Assembly (NCBI GenBank): GCA_017883235.1
Contig: JADGNY010000033.1
Coordinates: 1 to 52,090 of the forward strand
From: Thermoanaerobaculia bacterium
GTDB lineage: Bacteria > Acidobacteriota > Thermoanaerobaculia > Gp7-AA8
Length of the DNA: 52,090 nucleotides
Direction of reading: 5' to 3'
Shown: positions 3,823 to 17,269 of the stretch, piece after piece
Position numbering within the stretch: the first letter of the stretch is position 1
Layout: each line of letters begins with the position of its first letter
Program-made: the position numbers and the translations under genes
The notes under the pieces: model-generated
Databases searched by the model: none
What the model was told of the DNA's origin: nothing
What the model saw: the letters and a program-made list of their open reading frames with translations, nothing else

Positions 3823-5265
3823 GTGAATCTGGAGCGGATCGAGGTCACACCCTTCGCCGCCATCGTAGGCGAAATTTTACAGGGGCGAAGGACCGGATCG
3901 CTGACGATCGTCCACGCGCCGCTGCGAAAGACCCTGTACTGGTCGCAGGGCGAGCTGGCGCTGATCACCTCGGCGGCGCCGGAGGATTCTCTGGCCGATT
4001 TCCTCAGCCGCCGCGGCATCCTTCCGGGCGATCGGGCTCTGACGTTGGCCAGCGTCGATCCGACCGAGGCCGCCGCCACGTTTCACGAGTTGGGCATCGT
4101 CGATATGTCGACGCGCCAGACTCTGCTGCGTGAATGGATGACGCAACAGTTCGTGCCGCTCTTTTCTCTCGACGAAGGGACGTCGGCATTCAACGATGAC
4201 CACGCCATCGAGCCGGAGAAGCGCGTCTTTCTGCAGTCGACGCCGGCCGTGGTGCTGGACGGCATCCGCGCCATTACCAACGGCCTGGTCCTGCGGCGAT
4301 CGCTCGGCGATCTGAAGCGCGAGATCGCACCGGAACGCGATGCACAAAGCGTCCTCGACACCATTCCCCTGACCGACGCGGAGCGGCAGATCGCCGATGC
4401 GCTGGTCCAGCCGCAATCGATCGAGACGTTCCTGAAGCAGTTCACGAACGACTCGGTGACCGCGGCGCGCGTCGTCATCGCCATGATGACGCTCGGATTG
4501 TTTGGCGTAGTCGATCACTCCTTGCGGCCGGCGCCGGCGGCCGACGCGAGCGACATGCAGCGCGACCTCGAGCTGCTCGCCGCGATCGGCTCGACCGATC
4601 AGCGGTCGTTGCGTGCCGTGGCGCTCTCGCGGCAGTTACCGTCGATCGATCACTATCAGCTTCTCGAGGTGCCGCGTGCCGCCACCCGAGGACAGATCGC
4701 GAGCTCGCTCGAGGAGAAACGGCGGCAGTACGCCGAGGCGACGTTTCCGCCGGTGGTGAAAGAGGCTCTGGCGGCGATCAACCGGCGGCTCGATGAGGCG
4801 GCGGCCGCACTCGAACATCCCGTGCGGCGGCAGGCCTACGACAAGCTGCTGGAGCAGCGGCCCGTACACGGGGGCGGTGACGATCTGGATCGGCGGCAGG
4901 CACAGCGGTCGATCGCCAATCAGAACTTTCAACGCGCCCGCGAGCTGAGCGCGACGGGCGATTACTACGGTGCGATCGTTCTCCTGAAACAGGCGGTGAC
5001 GTTCGCCCCCGATCACGCCGAGGCCTGGCATCTCCTGGGCGCATGCCAGGAACGCAATCCGAAATGGCGCCGCAACGCCGCCGAGAGTTTTCAGCGGGCG
5101 CTGTCCCTCGATCCGAATTCGGTCGAGGCCCTGATCTCCCTCGGCGATCTCTATCGCACCGAAGGTTTGACCTCCCGCGCGCAGGGTTGCTACGAAGACG
5201 TACTGAAAATCTCCGCCGAGCACGCGCAGGCGAAGAGCAGACTGGCGGCGATCAAGAAGCAGTAG
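3823..5265 (+). CDS. DUF4388 (PATAN-like) protein with degenerate J-like segment and C-terminal TPRs
   Basis: 480 residues. The N-terminal ~110 residues match the DUF4388 pattern (G-E-I-L-Q-G-R-R-T-G-S-L-T-I then LYWSQGELALITS), a domain common in bacterial signalling proteins. Residues ~274-345 (IDHYQLLEVPRAATRGQI ... HPVRRQAYDKLL) resemble a DnaJ J-domain but lack the HPD motif, so Hsp70 stimulation is unlikely. Residues ~365-478 form about three TPRs. The GTG at 3823 is chosen because AGGAA sits seven bases upstream. The gene is monocistronic and divergent from the TPR gene at 1755-3677. It is probably a cytosolic scaffold in a signalling pathway (inference). Confidence 0.85.
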   Translation: MNLERIEVTPFAAIVGEILQGRRTGSLTIVHAPLRKTLYWSQGELALITSAAPEDSLADFLSRRGILPGDRALTLASVDPTEAAATFHELGIVDMSTRQTLLREWMTQQFVPLFSLDEGTSAFNDDHAIEPEKRVFLQSTPAVVLDGIRAITNGLVLRRSLGDLKREIAPERDAQSVLDTIPLTDAERQIADALVQPQSIETFLKQFTNDSVTAARVVIAMMTLGLFGVVDHSLRPAPAADASDMQRDLELLAAIGSTDQRSLRAVALSRQLPSIDHYQLLEVPRAATRGQIASSLEEKRRQYAEATFPPVVKEALAAINRRLDEAAAALEHPVRRQAYDKLLEQRPVHGGGDDLDRRQAQRSIANQNFQRARELSATGDYYGAIVLLKQAVTFAPDHAEAWHLLGACQERNPKWRRNAAESFQRALSLDPNSVEALISLGDLYRTEGLTSRAQGCYEDVLKISAEHAQAKSRLAAIKKQ

Positions 5266-12098: not shown

Positions 12099-12806
12099 AT
12101 GCTCCGAACCATCTGGGCCGCGACCGTGGCCATCGTGGTGACCATCCCGCTGGCGACGACGGTGATGGTCATCGCTCTTCTTTCATCGTCCTCGCCGTTG
12201 ATCGATCCGGTGATCCGGCTCTGGGCCCGGCTGATCCTCTGGGGCGCCGGCATCGAGATTCGCGGCGAGGGAATCGAGACCATCGACCGCGACAGGCGCT
12301 ACATCCTCATCGCCAACCACCACTCGTACTTCGACATCCCCTGCATCTTCGCGGCGATTCCGCAGCCGATCCGTTTCATGGCCAAGAAGAGTCTCTTCAG
12401 CATCCCCATCTTCGGCTGGGCCATCGGCCGGGCCGGCTTCATCCCCATCGACCGCAAGAACCGGCGGACGGCGGTGAAGTCGTTCGACCTTGCCGTGCAG
12501 CGCATCCGCAAAGGCAACACGATCGTCATCTTCCCGGAGGAAGGACGCTCCCGAGAGCTGGCCATGCGGCCCTTCCAACGTGGCGCGTTCCTGCTGGCCA
12601 TCCGTTCGGAGCTGCCGATCCTTCCGCTGGCGATCGACGGGACGTACGACGTCTTCCGCGTCGGCGCGAAGAGGATCACCCCGGGAGTGGTGACGATCCG
12701 CGTCGGCACACCGATCGAAACGGTCGGCGTCGGCGTGCGGGCGAAGGACACGCTGCTGGAGCAATCGCGGGGGCAGATCGAGGAGATGCTTTCGCGTCCA
12801 TCCTGA
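12099..12806 (+). CDS. plsC: 1-acyl-sn-glycerol-3-phosphate acyltransferase (PlsC family)
   Basis: 235 residues. It transfers an acyl chain to lysophosphatidate, forming phosphatidate for phospholipid synthesis at the inner membrane. An N-terminal membrane segment (~5-30) is followed by the catalytic H-x4-D motif (NHHSYFD, His74 to Asp79), a substrate-binding block with FIPIDRKNRR, and FPEEGRS at 145-151. I start at the ATG before LRTIWAATV; the longer open frame upstream lacks protein-like composition. TAAGAT lies eight bases before the ATG with no ribosome site, so the mRNA may be leaderless. A damaged partial copy of this gene lies at 14011-14208. Confidence 0.92.
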   Translation: MLRTIWAATVAIVVTIPLATTVMVIALLSSSSPLIDPVIRLWARLILWGAGIEIRGEGIETIDRDRRYILIANHHSYFDIPCIFAAIPQPIRFMAKKSLFSIPIFGWAIGRAGFIPIDRKNRRTAVKSFDLAVQRIRKGNTIVIFPEEGRSRELAMRPFQRGAFLLAIRSELPILPLAIDGTYDVFRVGAKRITPGVVTIRVGTPIETVGVGVRAKDTLLEQSRGQIEEMLSRPS

Positions 12807-12893
12807 CGGCAGTTTATCTGTTCGGATGCCACCGTTTCGCAGTAACATCAGAGGTCAAACACGGCTTTGTACGATGAACGGAGGAGGCGTTGT

Positions 12894-13475
12894 ATGCGTA
12901 GTCGGCTGATAGGAATCCTGATGTTAGTTGCGTTATCACTAGGGAGCGTGGCGGCGTTCGCCCAGGAGAAGAAAGAGGCGGCGAAGCCGCTGAAGATCAA
13001 GGTCGGGGACATGGCGCCCGACTTCACGCTGCTGGAGTACGACGGCACCAAGCTCAAGGCGGTCTCGCTGCACGATTTCAAGGGGAAGAAGAACGTCGCT
13101 CTGGCCTTCTTCGTCTTCGCCTTCACAGGTGGCTGAACGACCGAAATGAAAGCCTTCCAGGCCAGTCTGGCCAAGATTGAAGGCTCAGACACCCAGGTCT
13201 TGGGTGTGAGCGTTGACAGCCCCTTTGCCAATCACGCATTCGCGCAGCAGAACGGCATCACCTTCCCCATCCTCGGCGACATGGACGCCAAAGCGATCAA
13301 AGCCTACGGACTGGAGAAGGATTACCACATCGGCGGCGCCACCATGGCCTCGGCGCGCCGGGCCTCTTTCCTGATCGACAAGGAAGGAAAGGTGGTCGAG
13401 GAGCAGGGGGACAATGATGCCGTCGATCCGACGAAGATCGTGGATGCCTGCCAGTTCAAGCCCCGCGCGAAGTGA
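12894..13475 (+). CDS. Selenocysteine-containing peroxiredoxin (AhpC/TSA family), UGA at 13134-13136
   Basis: Read through the in-frame TGA, the product is 193 residues: signal peptide (~1-24, ending AAFAQ), then a peroxiredoxin/thioredoxin fold. The TGA (residue 81) falls exactly where the peroxidatic Cys belongs: AFTGG-U-TTEM, compare the usual F-T-x-x-C-T-x-E. Both sides are in one frame and both show peroxiredoxin sequence (VGDMAPDFTLLEYDG before; FPILGDMDAKAIKAYGL and RASFLIDKEGKVVE after). Cys186 near the end could resolve the selenenic acid. A SECIS-like hairpin follows the TGA and selA lies 1.7 kb away. GGAGG precedes the ATG. It should reduce peroxides in the periplasm. A simple nonsense mutation is the alternative, much less likely. 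Confidence 0.88.
13151..13185 (+). promoter_or_regulatory. Bacterial SECIS-like stem-loop for Sec insertion
   Basis: It begins 14 bases after the TGA. The lower stem pairs AGCCTTC (13151-13157) with GAAGGCT (13179-13185). After an asymmetric internal loop, the upper stem pairs GGCC (13160-13163) with GGCC (13169-13172). The apical loop is AGTCT, 27 bases from the TGA, inside the usual bacterial range, with a G early in the loop as SelB prefers. The element lies inside the coding region, as in bacteria generally. Confidence 0.75.
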
Positions 13476-13512: not shown

Positions 13513-13557
13513 TTGAGATTGGACGTTTCTTCGTGCGCTACGTGGCAAGGCGCCGCG

Positions 13558-13836
13558 GGCGCCGCGGAGCGGCGCAATCTACGTAGCCCACAGCGTGAGC
13601 TGTGGGGAAATCGATTCAGCAGACGTTGAGCCGCGGAGCGGCGACATCTCGAACGCCGCGTCAGCTACCAGGATGAGGTGTGCGCGTTCCTGAAAAAGCA
13701 GGGATGCAGTGCGATGAGCGGTACATGTGGGAATGATCACTCCGAAATGTCGCCGCTCCGCGGCTGGAGATTGCCCGATCACTTTCCCACAGCTCACGCT
13801 GTGGGCTACGTAAATTTGCGCCGCTCCGCGGCGCCC
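13558..13836. repeat. Nested-palindrome intergenic element (~280 bp)
   Basis: The outer arms 13558-13610 and 13783-13836 are near-perfect inverted copies that include TACGTAGCCCACAGC and GCCGCGGAGCGGC. A second, inner pair (13629-13647 and 13747-13765) repeats the GCCGCGGAGCGGCGACAT motif in inverted order. Each arm therefore contains its own small palindromes. The order is hairpin rows followed by their mirror image, as at 28447-28833 and 21596-21825. No coding frame in it is credible. Confidence 0.85.
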
Positions 13837-13886
13837 ACGCTGGCTACACCGGCGGTGGGCGTTGGGGGGCGTCAACACGTAGGCGC

Positions 13887-14003
13887 TATCGCCGAATCGC
13901 CTCCGCCACGTCCCGCCCATCCGCCTCCCCCAGCGTCCGCACCTCGATCGTGAACCGGTCATCGACGATGCGTCCCACGATTGGCGGATCGTTTCGAAGG
14001 AAC
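13887..14003 (-). pseudogene. selA: Duplicated 3' fragment of selA
   Basis: About 117 bp matches the last codons of selA (15193-15311) in the same orientation, with roughly seven differences including one indel. It encodes only the C-terminal ~38 residues of SelA and has no start. It joins the plsC fragment at about 14003-14011. Confidence 0.85.
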
Positions 14004-14010
14004 CGTGACT

Positions 14011-14208
14011 CGATCGGAGCTGCCGATACTTCCGCTGGCGATCGATGGGACCTACGACGTTTTCCGCGACGGCGCGAAAAGGATCACCCCGGGCGTGGTG
14101 ACGAACCGCGTCGGCACGCCTATCGAGACGGTTGGCGTAGGCGTGCGGGCGAAAGACACGCAGACTCGATCAATCGCGGGGGCAGATCGAGGAGATGCTG
14201 GCGCGCGG
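14011..14208 (+). pseudogene. plsC: Duplicated 3' fragment of plsC, frameshifted
   Basis: This matches plsC from about 12608 to 12790 (SELPILPLAIDGTYDVF, then KRITPGVVT and RVGTPIETVGVGVRAKDT) at roughly 88-90% identity. A one-base insertion near 14163 breaks the frame after KDT. There is no acyltransferase catalytic core and no start. The end differs from the intact gene, so the source may be a diverged relative rather than a recent copy. Confidence 0.88.
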
Positions 14209-14247: not shown

Positions 14248-14592
14248 TCATGCGGGCACCGTGATCTTGTTCCGCAGCTCTCTCAGAAGTGCATCCCCCC
14301 GTTTAGCATCAATACCCACGCTCTTGCGCATACGATCATGCACGATCTCACCGATTCGACTGATGTGGTACTCCACTCGGACACGGCTAAGATCAGCTAA
14401 GGGTAGCTGCTCTGCTTCCTCGATTTCGTGCACGATGCGCTCAGCCAATTCGCGAGCCTCGGCGGATTGGGCACCAAAAGGAGTATCCGGGGCCACGATC
14501 GAGCCGGAGAGATGCTTCAGAGCACGGATGGCCAGGTACCCAGCCTCAACGGCTACATTTTGCGGAGCGGAGATTAAAGTTTCCAACGACAT
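14248..14592 (-). CDS. Hypothetical protein, second gene of an unrecognised two-gene operon
   Basis: 114 residues, mostly helical by composition, with amphipathic stretches (EARELAERIVHEIEEAEQLPL, shown here as separate helices) and no membrane segment. The ATG overlaps the TGA of the upstream gene and has a strong GGAGG site, so the pair is certainly co-translated. No family recognised. The operon sits between a duplicated selA tail and selA itself, which suggests it was inserted here. Possible roles such as a defence or toxin-antitoxin component are speculation. Confidence 0.75.
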   Translation of the reverse strand: MSLETLISAPQNVAVEAGYLAIRALKHLSGSIVAPDTPFGAQSAEARELAERIVHEIEEAEQLPLADLSRVRVEYHISRIGEIVHDRMRKSVGIDAKRGDALLRELRNKITVPA

Positions 14593-15092
14593 CACGGGCC
14601 TCCAAGGGGCAATTCAAGTACGTCAAAATCAGCACGCGGCAACCGTGCGACGATGTACTCACGAGAGAGCGGATGAGCACGGAGCTCAACTGGCGCAGCT
14701 TCGACAACCGCCCGCACGCGATCAAACGGGATAACGTACAGCAGGGGCCGAAAATCCCTGCCTGACGCCTGTTCGAGTATGGACAAGATATCCTTCTGCT
14801 CCGCGTCCGATATTACTCCGGCAGCACGCTTCGCCGCGGCACCCCTCAAGATGCCTGCGTTGTTTTCCCTGACTTTAGCGCTGTGCCGATCGCCCCGACG
14901 AACATCGTCGTATAGACCACGATAAATCTCAGAGGGTGAAGAGCTTGGAGGGACCACTTGATCAACGCTCGCAAGGGACCGGGCGTCAAAATCAGGCGTG
15001 CACCAGACGTAGTGTTCGCCACGGTAGAACCGTTCACCGATCACATACGCGAGCCAGGTGTTGGCCGAGTACAAAATCAGAGGATCTGTCAT
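14592..15092 (-). CDS. Hypothetical protein, first gene of an unrecognised two-gene operon
   Basis: 166 residues starting MTDPLILYSANTWLAYVIGE, then RFYRGEHYVWCTPDFDARS. The opening has a beta-strand then aromatic-rich look, and a conserved-looking WCTPDFD block near residue 33-39. No signal peptide or membrane segment. I have a vague memory of similar N-termini in accessory regions but cannot name the family. The frame is open 29 codons further upstream; I chose this ATG because the sequence becomes protein-like here and a TATACT box stands 12 bases before it, fitting a leaderless transcript. It overlaps the next gene. Confidence 0.75.
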   Translation of the reverse strand: MTDPLILYSANTWLAYVIGERFYRGEHYVWCTPDFDARSLASVDQVVPPSSSPSEIYRGLYDDVRRGDRHSAKVRENNAGILRGAAAKRAAGVISDAEQKDILSILEQASGRDFRPLLYVIPFDRVRAVVEAAPVELRAHPLSREYIVARLPRADFDVLELPLGGP

Positions 15093-15186
15093 GTTTAGGC
15101 CGGAAGTATACCCTTGTGAATGCTGTCCTCCGGAGGGCTGGACGGGATACTCCACGATTTCTTCCGGCCGAGGAGACACAGAAGGA

Positions 15187-16542
15187 TCAACCTATCGGCC
15201 GAATCGCCTCCGCCACTTCGCGCCAATCCCCCTCCGCCAGCGTCCGCACCTCGATGGTGAACCGGTCATCGACGATGCGTCCCACGATTGGCGGATCGTT
15301 TCGAAGGAAGCGCTCCGCAAGTGCGCTGGCGTCGCCGGGCACTTCGATGGCGATCGAGGGGATCGTCTCGGTCGGCGTTGTGCCTCCGCCGAGGGCGCAT
15401 TGGCTGTCGATGATGCGGCACTCCGTTCCCTGAACCATCTCTGCGGCGTGGGAGCGCAGGACGCCCAGAGGCGTGGCCAGCATCCGGTAGATCGGGATCT
15501 CCGTCTCGTGACGGCCGATGGCGAAGGCGCGGAGAGTCTCGGCGATCACGGCGTATGACTCCTTCCCCGCGCGCAGTGCGCGCATCAGCGGATGCTTGCG
15601 CACGCGGTTGAGGATGCTCGCGCTGCCGACGATGAGGCCCCCCTGCGTGGCGCCGATCAGCTTGTCCGTGGAGAAGGAGACGGCGTCGACACCGTCCGCG
15701 ATCAGCTCACGGATCGTCGGCGCGGAGGTGAATCCGTACGGCGCAAGGTCGACCACCCGGCCGCTCCCTTCGTCGTACAGCAGCGGGAGATCGTGTTTGC
15801 GGGAGACGGCGACCAGCTCCTCGATTGATGGCGACTCGGTGAAGCCGACGATCTCGAAATTCGAGCGATGGACGCGCAGGATCGCCGCGGTAGCATCGGA
15901 GACCGCGGCTTCGTAGTCGCCGGCGCGCGTCCGGTTCGTCGTCCCCACCTCACGCAGGCGCGCGCCGCCCTGCTGGATGACGTCGGGAACGCGGAACGAG
16001 CCGCCGATCTCGACCAGCTCGCCGCGCGAGACGATGACTTCGCGCCCGCCGGCGACGGCGGCCAGCAGCAACAGCGTGCCGGCGGCGTTGTTGTTCGTGA
16101 GCACGGCGGCCTCGCAGCCGAAGAGCGTGCGGCAAAGCTCCGTAAGGTGCTCGTCGCGGCGGCCGCGCGATCCTTCCTCGAGATCGAATTCGAGGTTCGA
16201 GTAGCCGGCCGTGATGGCGGCGGCGCGCGACCAGATCGCCGGGTCGATGGGCGAACGGCCGAGGTTCGTGTGGATGATGACGCCGGAGCCGTTGATCACA
16301 CGGCGCAGCGTCGAGGCGGTCGAGGCGGCCACCTGCTTGCGGACATCGCCGGCCGCGGCGGTCTCCTCGAAGGTCTCACGCGTGCTGCGAAGCGCTTCCA
16401 GATGAACGGCCACCGCCTCCTTCACGCGGTCGCGCCCGAATTCGTCGATGAGCCCGGCGAACGCGCCGCTGGAGAGAATCCGCTCGACGGAGGGGATACT
16501 TCGGAGCGCGGAATCTCCCGGCACGGGCGCCGATTTAGCCAT
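15187..16542 (-). CDS. selA: L-seryl-tRNA(Sec) selenium transferase
   Basis: 451 residues, the usual SelA length. This PLP enzyme converts Ser-tRNA(Sec) to Sec-tRNA(Sec) using selenophosphate. Visible marks are the N-terminal region ending in RRVINGSGVIIHTNLGRSP (~80-98), the NNNAAGTLLLL block, and the PLP lysine in SFSTDKLIGATQGG (Lys294). The 62-residue upstream open extension is translated repeat DNA, so I start at ATG 16542; TACAAT lies eight bases before it and no ribosome site is visible. Its presence explains the UGA-containing peroxiredoxin at 12894. selB, selC and selD must lie elsewhere. A fragment of its 3' end is repeated at 13887-14003. Confidence 0.96.
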   Translation of the reverse strand: MAKSAPVPGDSALRSIPSVERILSSGAFAGLIDEFGRDRVKEAVAVHLEALRSTRETFEETAAAGDVRKQVAASTASTLRRVINGSGVIIHTNLGRSPIDPAIWSRAAAITAGYSNLEFDLEEGSRGRRDEHLTELCRTLFGCEAAVLTNNNAAGTLLLLAAVAGGREVIVSRGELVEIGGSFRVPDVIQQGGARLREVGTTNRTRAGDYEAAVSDATAAILRVHRSNFEIVGFTESPSIEELVAVSRKHDLPLLYDEGSGRVVDLAPYGFTSAPTIRELIADGVDAVSFSTDKLIGATQGGLIVGSASILNRVRKHPLMRALRAGKESYAVIAETLRAFAIGRHETEIPIYRMLATPLGVLRSHAAEMVQGTECRIIDSQCALGGGTTPTETIPSIAIEVPGDASALAERFLRNDPPIVGRIVDDRFTIEVRTLAEGDWREVAEAIRPIG

Positions 16543-16550
16543 GGAGGGGT

Positions 16551-16556
16551 ATTGTA
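16551..16556 (-). promoter_or_regulatory. -10-like box of selA, leaderless arrangement
   Basis: TACAAT on the minus strand, eight bases before the selA ATG. The intervening bases (ACCCCTCC as read on the minus strand) contain no Shine-Dalgarno sequence, so transcription probably starts at or next to the start codon. Confidence 0.5.
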
Positions 16557-16560
16557 GTGG

Positions 16561-16652
16561 CGGGGGTCGGGAGTCGGGAGTCGGGAGTCGGAGAAGAAGC
16601 TCGCCGGTAGTTGGCCTTTCTCCGACCCCCGGCTCCCGACTCCCGGCTCCCG
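16561..16652. repeat. GGGAGTCGG inverted repeat, copy 1
   Basis: The left arm 16561-16595 is four GGGAGTCGG-type units in a row; the right arm 16617-16652 is the inverted series (CCGACCCCCGGCTCCCGACT and so on). It lies between the divergent genes selA and the MXAN_5187-like gene. Related copies are at 26153-26214 and 29891-29980. Confidence 0.85.
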
Positions 16653-16663
16653 AAAGTTCACCA

Positions 16664-17269
16664 GTGATCAAACAAGACGACGAGCTCGACAAGCTCGAAG
16701 AAGACATCCGCAAGCTGAAGAACAAGTACGACCAGTTCTTCGCCGGGATCCAGAAGTTCCCGCCGATGCACGAGCGGCGGGTGCTCGAGGTCTACATCCA
16801 CGAGCTGGGGAAGCAGAAGATCCGGGACAACACCCGCCGCTTTCGCTACTCGCAGCTCCTGACGCGCTACAACCAGCTTCGCGAGCTGTGGGGCCGCAGG
16901 ATGCGGGAACGGGAGGAGGGCCCTCTCGATTTCCGGCGCCGCTCGGCGTTATTGAACGCGCCCTCCGAACCGCCGGCACCGAAACCGGCGCCAATCCAGG
17001 AGCCGCGCGTAACGTTGCCGAAGGCCGATCCGTATGTAAGGGTGGCGACCGGCGCGAACGGCGACGAGATCCAACGGCTTTACGGTGACATCGAAAAGGA
17101 GCACCTCCGGCTCGGCAAACTGCCGGACATCACCATCGAGCAGTTCCGAACGATGGTGCAGAAGCAGAGCGAATTCGTACGTGAGAAATATCATGTCGCC
17201 GTCGTCGCCTTCCGGGTGGACGTCGTCGACGGCAAAGTGAAATTGAAAGCGAAACCGATTCAGGAATGA
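16664..17269 (+). CDS. MXAN_5187 C-terminal-domain-like protein
   Basis: 201 residues. The first ~90 residues are a charged helical region (DELDKLEEDIRKLKNKYDQF, then RRFRYSQLLTRYNQLRELW) that matches my memory of the 'MXAN_5187 C-terminal-like' family known from myxobacteria. A proline-rich linker (~97-115) leads to a second domain (~125-195) ending in FRVDVVDGKVKLKAKPIQE. The GTG at 16664 is taken as the start because everything upstream is repeat DNA. It overlaps the next gene by ATGA, so the two form an operon. Role unknown; cytosolic. Confidence 0.75.
   Translation: MIKQDDELDKLEEDIRKLKNKYDQFFAGIQKFPPMHERRVLEVYIHELGKQKIRDNTRRFRYSQLLTRYNQLRELWGRRMREREEGPLDFRRRSALLNAPSEPPAPKPAPIQEPRVTLPKADPYVRVATGANGDEIQRLYGDIEKEHLRLGKLPDITIEQFRTMVQKQSEFVREKYHVAVVAFRVDVVDGKVKLKAKPIQE

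Follow-up and report, generated by a model that had tools for sequence, protein, structure and literature searches.

How is the TGA codon in the middle of a peroxiredoxin gene read, and what kind of enzyme results from it? The gene occupies positions 12894–13475 of the forward strand in the window, by which we mean the whole 52,090-nucleotide stretch of DNA analysed here. Ordinary gene calling yields two open reading frames (12867/12894–13136 and 13146–13475), the split that the preliminary description had expected of standard callers. Read as a single frame, the gene encodes 193 residues including selenocysteine (Sec) at position 81 and ends at the TGA codon 13473–13475. The reading frame and the relatives place the TGA of codon 81 (13134–13136, forward strand) at the peroxidatic position, within AFTGG-U-TTEM. 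A strong Shine-Dalgarno-like stretch, GGAGGAGG (12880–12887, forward strand, recognised by sequence reading), lies 6 nt 5′ of the ATG. The host genome consists of 6.9 Mb in 246 contigs, and the sequence relatives are Acidobacteriota. Taken as a whole, the locus very likely specifies an exported Sec peroxiredoxin, with hairpin-directed Sec insertion and pairing of the selenocysteine with Cys186.

Does the TGA simply terminate translation, leaving a pseudogene or two short genes? The two called frames, the downstream one beginning with ATG, would suit such a stop. However, the AhpC-TSA family (PF00578) matches across both halves in one frame (residues 37–168; 108.1 bits, cut-off 26), and the TGA recurs throughout the family in the same column, with homology on both sides. 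A search of 396 genomes of the phylum Acidobacteriota gave an in-frame TGA in every one of the 48 top rows, which come from 47 genomes and score at least 97.5 bits. The best 30 of these 48 rows were extracted as orthologues (L022–L051), and each of the 30 has a single in-frame TGA, always at the shared column, together with a C-terminal cysteine. The decay of close relatives downstream of this codon, named in the preliminary description as the outcome that would speak against Sec, is absent: the dN/dS ratios of five pairs are 0.13–0.20 upstream of the TGA and 0.10–0.25 downstream, indicating purifying selection beyond it. The covarying hairpin in relatives and the Sec machinery in the genome also argue against a true stop, which is thus extremely improbable. 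As a separate observation, two of the 48 best rows, G266:C267:1737–2186 and G385:C206:3992–4435, have a further in-frame stop (TGA in one, TAG in the other) in addition to the expected TGA.

A second set of relatives, the best 80 of 567, broadens the comparison. The protein alignment comprises 109 rows, 81 with Sec (79 distinct cores) and 28 with Cys; one locus, L088, was excluded from it (NN gap between two copies). The peroxidatic column holds TGA in the 81 Sec rows and Cys in all 28 others. Among the best 80 of 567, 52 rows have Sec (51 aligned, plus L088) and are titled Acidobacteria, Terriglobia, Blastocatellia and similar; the closest relative in this set, from the MAG “gp7 AA11” (L052), shares 75% identity with the window's gene. 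Sec peroxiredoxins had been described beforehand as known but rare; known they are, but among the Acidobacteriota sampled here this form is frequent. Two Cys variants, L089 and L095, have Cys in the Sec column and are nested within Sec groups of the tree, whose well-supported branches require a minimum of three Sec/Cys changes in total.

Can the genome insert selenocysteine? The genes whose absence had been named in advance as contrary evidence are present: selB (352.7 bits), selD (365.7 bits) and tRNA-Sec (68.5 bits) all score above their cut-offs, and ARAGORN reports a tRNA-SeC with the anticodon TCA. The genome's own selD match (L009, 1501–2436) itself contains an in-frame TGA. Among the 47 genomes that supplied the best Sec rows, 46 have a selB score over the cut-off, as compared to 254 of 396 in the phylum sample as a whole (p 5e-9 by a hypergeometric test, a value that is only indicative because the genomes are related); the lone exception, G266, is 72% complete. 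No selB match at 1e-30 was found in the genome of the Cys variant L095, and selB is still present in that of L089.

A different decoding, by suppression or a reassigned code, would place Cys, Trp or another residue at codon 81, and the identity of residue 81 as Sec does come from comparison. Such a decoding is nevertheless hardly credible, given the TCA anticodon of the tRNA-Sec, the presence of SelA, SelB and SelD, and the fact that the gene itself ends in TGA. In addition, the codon stands at the peroxidatic site, where Cys is the only alternative residue in 109 rows. Selenocysteine is almost certainly inserted at codon 81, as judged from these comparisons.

The selA gene (selenocysteine synthase; 15187–16725, reverse strand; TIGR00474, 482.9 bits against a cut-off of 267.9) does lie 1.7 kb away, as previously noted, but this nearness does not stand as support for the reading. 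Its position is not conserved: selA was found in none of the 90 related loci (L052–L141; the flanks span roughly 4 to 10 kb and are in some cases truncated by contig ends), and its nearness is therefore no evidence. SelA is needed for the mechanism, but as far as conservation goes, the closeness of its gene is incidental.

Positions 13886–14005 are a copy of the selA 3′ end (93% identical to 15192–15312), and positions 14011–14205 copy the corresponding end of the acyltransferase gene (89% identical to 12603–12796). The two copies are joined in the order that a tandem duplication of the acyltransferase–selA stretch would leave at its seam. Just 3′ of the peroxiredoxin gene, positions 13554–13839 (286 bases) form an imperfect self-inverted repeat that matches its own reverse complement at 70% identity and may be a small mobile or intergenic element. 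Two overlapping reverse-strand open reading frames (14248–14595 and 14592–15179; 115 and 195 amino acids, no Pfam match) make up a two-gene cassette between the duplication seam and selA.

How would the ribosome distinguish this TGA from a stop? The two-tier hairpin with a short G-containing loop that the preliminary description had placed 14–49 nt after the TGA was recovered. This candidate SECIS (13151–13185, forward strand) has an outer stem of 13151–13157/13179–13185, an inner stem of 13160–13164/13168–13172 and the loop GUC at 13165–13167. As a single sequence, the window's hairpin folds only modestly better than its shuffles: its z value is −2.16 against dinucleotide shuffles, with −1.18, −0.53 and −0.89 for three other cuts, and −2.34 against synonymous-codon shuffles. 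It is the comparison with relatives that makes the hairpin more than chance. The Sec segments, 78 in total with none dropped, comprise 23 distinct ones in the window's own group and 55 in the sister group (group B).

In the sister group, the hairpin comprises nine pairs, a loop of three letters and a single bulged base, and 85.9% of the cells pair (n = 55). Double-sided changes amount to 48 cells, as compared to 15.3 in shuffles, and none of 500 shuffles reached as many; the covariation score is 0.262, and at most 0.135 when the partner is slid. The numbers of pairs with changes (4 against 4.1 shuffled) and of pair types (10 against 9.9) show no excess. The invariance of pairs 25–31 and 26–30 is partly due to selection of the rows, because group B was chosen partly by the letters of the loop-side pairs, in alignment columns 22–27 and 30–32. 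A codon test was applied with Tyr (TAT/TAC) or Phe (TTC), CAG and Asp/Gly in place, leaving free the third letters of the U+9 codon and of the Asp/Gly codon. The U+9 codon has T as its last base in 54 of 54 sister-group rows, although the background frequency of such codons in these genes is 23%. Each Tyr/Phe codon also matches the paired Asp/Gly codon throughout (TAT–GAT 36/36, TAC–GGT 13/13, TTC–GGA 5/5). To judge from these codons, the pairing in the sister group is beyond what protein constraint alone would impose.

The window's own group (n = 23) uses a shifted stem, in which 77.9% of the cells are paired, as compared to 51.8% or less when slid. It covaries weakly (9 double-sided cells, with 17 of 500 shuffles as high), and several pairs of this stem are open in the window itself. 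Against synonymous-codon shuffles, the 77 distinct Sec rows fold with a mean z of −1.44 (50 below −1), whereas the 28 Cys rows have a mean z of −0.27 (5 below −1). The hairpin is not preserved in the Cys variants L089 (z +0.70) and L095 (z +0.57); the latter codes YQAGI like its Sec relatives, but its codons break the stem. Rfam gives no gathering-level match in the window, and around the hairpin no credible one even at E 10. In Escherichia coli, the fdhF SECIS hairpin sits just after the UGA. Its CAGGTCTG (the query sequence was confirmed as fdhF) resembles the CAGTCTG of the window, although the two hairpins, compared by sequence only, differ in stem lengths and bulge.

Where does the protein act? 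Residues 1–23 form a predicted signal peptide, MRSRLIGILMLVALSLGSVAAFA followed by Q (AFA/Q; 12894–12962, forward strand), with the cleavage site placed by eye. The hydrophobic N-terminal stretch, scored by hydropathy, recurs in all 81 Sec rows (75 directly and 6 with sequence upstream of the chosen start), and among the 28 Cys rows only in L089 and L095. The exported character proposed for the window's protein would thus extend to the whole Sec set, and export of the peroxiredoxin from the cytoplasm is highly probable from its N-terminus.

Of the putative catalytic set surrounding Sec81, Thr78 and Arg156 are present in all 81 Sec rows. One position departs from the usual pattern: codon 74 (13113–13115, forward strand) aligns as Val, not the usual Pro of PxxxTxxC (position −7). 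The accessible text of PMC8945050 presents the Pro of Pxxx(T/S)xxC as a mark of all peroxiredoxins. With Val74, the window's protein lacks the strict motif, and its AhpC/TSA membership rests on the Pfam family and on descent. Among the 81 Sec rows, position −7 is Val or Ile in 67, Pro in 12, Thr in 1 and Lys in 1. Pro occupies it in 27 of the 28 Cys rows, including both L089 and L095, and the single Cys row without this Pro lies outside the clade. On the tree, the association between Sec and the −7 residue is not significant (3 independent pairs). Peroxidase activity of the exported Sec protein is likely from its family.

The protein falls under all 14 NCBIfam cut-offs scored, the best being PRK09437 (75 bits against 140), and it does not reach that of Prx-SUH (NF045827; 42 bits against 298). 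The same general NCBIfam models, whose cut-offs were scored for the window protein, are matched by 44 alignment members. We tentatively raise the possibility, to which we give somewhat less than even weight, of an unrecognised, exported subfamily that extends over much of the phylum Acidobacteriota. Its members would work through a Sec–Cys pair linking the last helix to the first turn of helix 2, and most of them would have lost the Pro, perhaps because selenium makes this loss tolerable; the Pro of the variants L089 and L095 is in keeping with this idea.

Which residue would resolve the oxidised selenocysteine? The proposed candidate is Cys186 (13449–13451, forward strand), located in the last helix and invariant in the aligned Sec rows. 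It occurs throughout the Sec rows (81 of 81) and in L089 and L095, whereas the 26 Cys homologues outside the clade all lack it; 24 of these carry a +5 or +6 Cys. The 109 rows accordingly divide into 81 with U and a C-terminal Cys and without a +5/+6 Cys, 21 Cys rows with a +5 Cys, 3 with a +6 Cys, 2 with a C-terminal Cys (L089 and L095) and 2 with neither. The second Cys of the clade lies 98–105 residues past the peroxidatic residue, and on the tree Cys186 requires 2 changes.

The AlphaFold model (pLDDT 90.3, from an alignment of 44) adopts the peroxiredoxin fold. Residue 81, modelled as Cys, is near the start of the helix 79–90, and Cys186 is in the last helix, 180–188. In Prx5, the resolving Cys resides in the last helix, and human Prx5 aligns to the model with Z 20.8, a comparison made at the level of the overall fold. 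The closest folds are BcpB, Bcp4, Bcp1 and AhpE. Bcp4 (Sulfolobus, PDB 3hjp; Z 23.7, 38% identity) and AhpE (Mycobacterium tuberculosis, PDB 1xxu; Z 23.2, 33% identity), each aligned over about 150 residues, are Cys enzymes with 153–158 resolved residues, unlike the Sec protein of the window.

The likeness to AhpE raises a different reading, a 1-Cys-type Sec peroxiredoxin in which an outside thiol reduces Sec81, and Cys186 serves a structural role or an inter-subunit bond. By structure, AhpE is one of the best matches (Z about 23, 32–33% identity), and in GPx-type enzymes Sec chemistry needs no resolving Cys. Cys186 is also helical in the model. Moreover, the locus L088 has a second peroxiredoxin copy directly after the first (4441–4935, NN gap between), with TGA at the peroxidatic site and a similar hairpin sequence, and without the C-terminal Cys, which counts against a universal need for it. 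On the other side stands the distribution of Cys186: AhpE is termed 1-Cys in the consulted part of PMC5811025, a type defined by the lack of a conserved second Cys, whereas the Sec rows retain theirs in 81 of 81. The 1-Cys reading is consequently rather unlikely. Cys186 is moderately likely, from its conservation, to be the resolving residue, forming a selenenylsulfide with Sec81 in the same subunit or across a dimer. The preliminary description had called it a possible resolving cysteine; its presence is borne out, and its role is strengthened and unproven.

How does this protein differ from known systems? In some PrxQ/BCP proteins, the resolving Cys lies elsewhere, in a later helix. The sequence neighbours outside the clade are mostly of the +5/+6 type (24 of 26), as compared to 0 of 81 within it; the available portion of PMC5811025 gives +5 as the position of the resolving Cys in PrxQ/BCP. 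PrxU of Eubacterium acidaminophilum was reportedly described by Sohling et al. in 2001, and NF040737 presumably models this protein. As a Sec peroxiredoxin, it has detectable homology to the window's protein, which scores 63.8 bits, far under the equivalog cut-off of 270. Sec peroxiredoxins are already known, and what is new is the exported form with an invariant C-terminal cysteine.

Several surveys, as far as their accessible text goes, list such proteins: PMC9312934 places a Sec Prx (TxxU) under COG1225 Bcp, with the reference WP_011365628.1, and such proteins are also listed in the review table of PMC13188914. Forty-three Sec peroxiredoxin sequences were counted in the Sargasso set (PMC1088965) and 12 in 2006, when the corresponding table gave Acidobacteria 3 families and 4 selenoproteins (PMC1794560); deep-Sep reports 3 selenoprotein genes in Occallatibacter riparius (PMC12013277). 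In their accessible text, these accounts of Acidobacteria do not mention the present protein by name. The COG1225 Sec Prx resembles ours in having Sec at the peroxidatic TxxU and an in-gene bacterial SECIS; its descriptions, in the passages at hand, mention no signal peptide or C-terminal Cys, and it is by description only that the two are set apart. Within the accessible portions of the open-licence literature, no report of an exported or an Acidobacteriota Sec peroxiredoxin was found.

On the basis of conservation and the machinery present, we propose the following sequence of events. First, SelB and Sec-tRNA(Sec) would read the UGA at 13134–13136 as Sec, steered by the hairpin at 13151–13185, and the signal peptide would direct export of the protein from the cytoplasm. 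There, with Thr78 and Arg156 as the activating residues, Sec81 would reduce hydroperoxides, as expected from the family, and become a selenenic acid. Cys186 may attack this selenenic acid to form the Sec81–Cys186 selenenylsulfide, taking the place of the PrxQ-type +5/+6 Cys. Finally, a periplasmic thioredoxin-like protein would reduce the selenenylsulfide. No conserved neighbour gene that would name the reductant is general among the related loci: the commonest cluster accompanies 9 of 65 loci, and plsC is found in 0 of 90.

The natural series of Sec enzymes, Sec-to-Cys variants and other Cys homologues offers a test of what selenium gives a peroxiredoxin, and of whether resolving cysteines may move once Sec is used. 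The codon-by-codon pairing in turn constitutes a natural data set on the requirements of bacterial SECIS elements within coding sequence. Since ordinary gene calling cuts the gene in two, this extracytoplasmic selenium enzyme, conserved among soil bacteria, is likely to be overlooked or recorded as two fragments.
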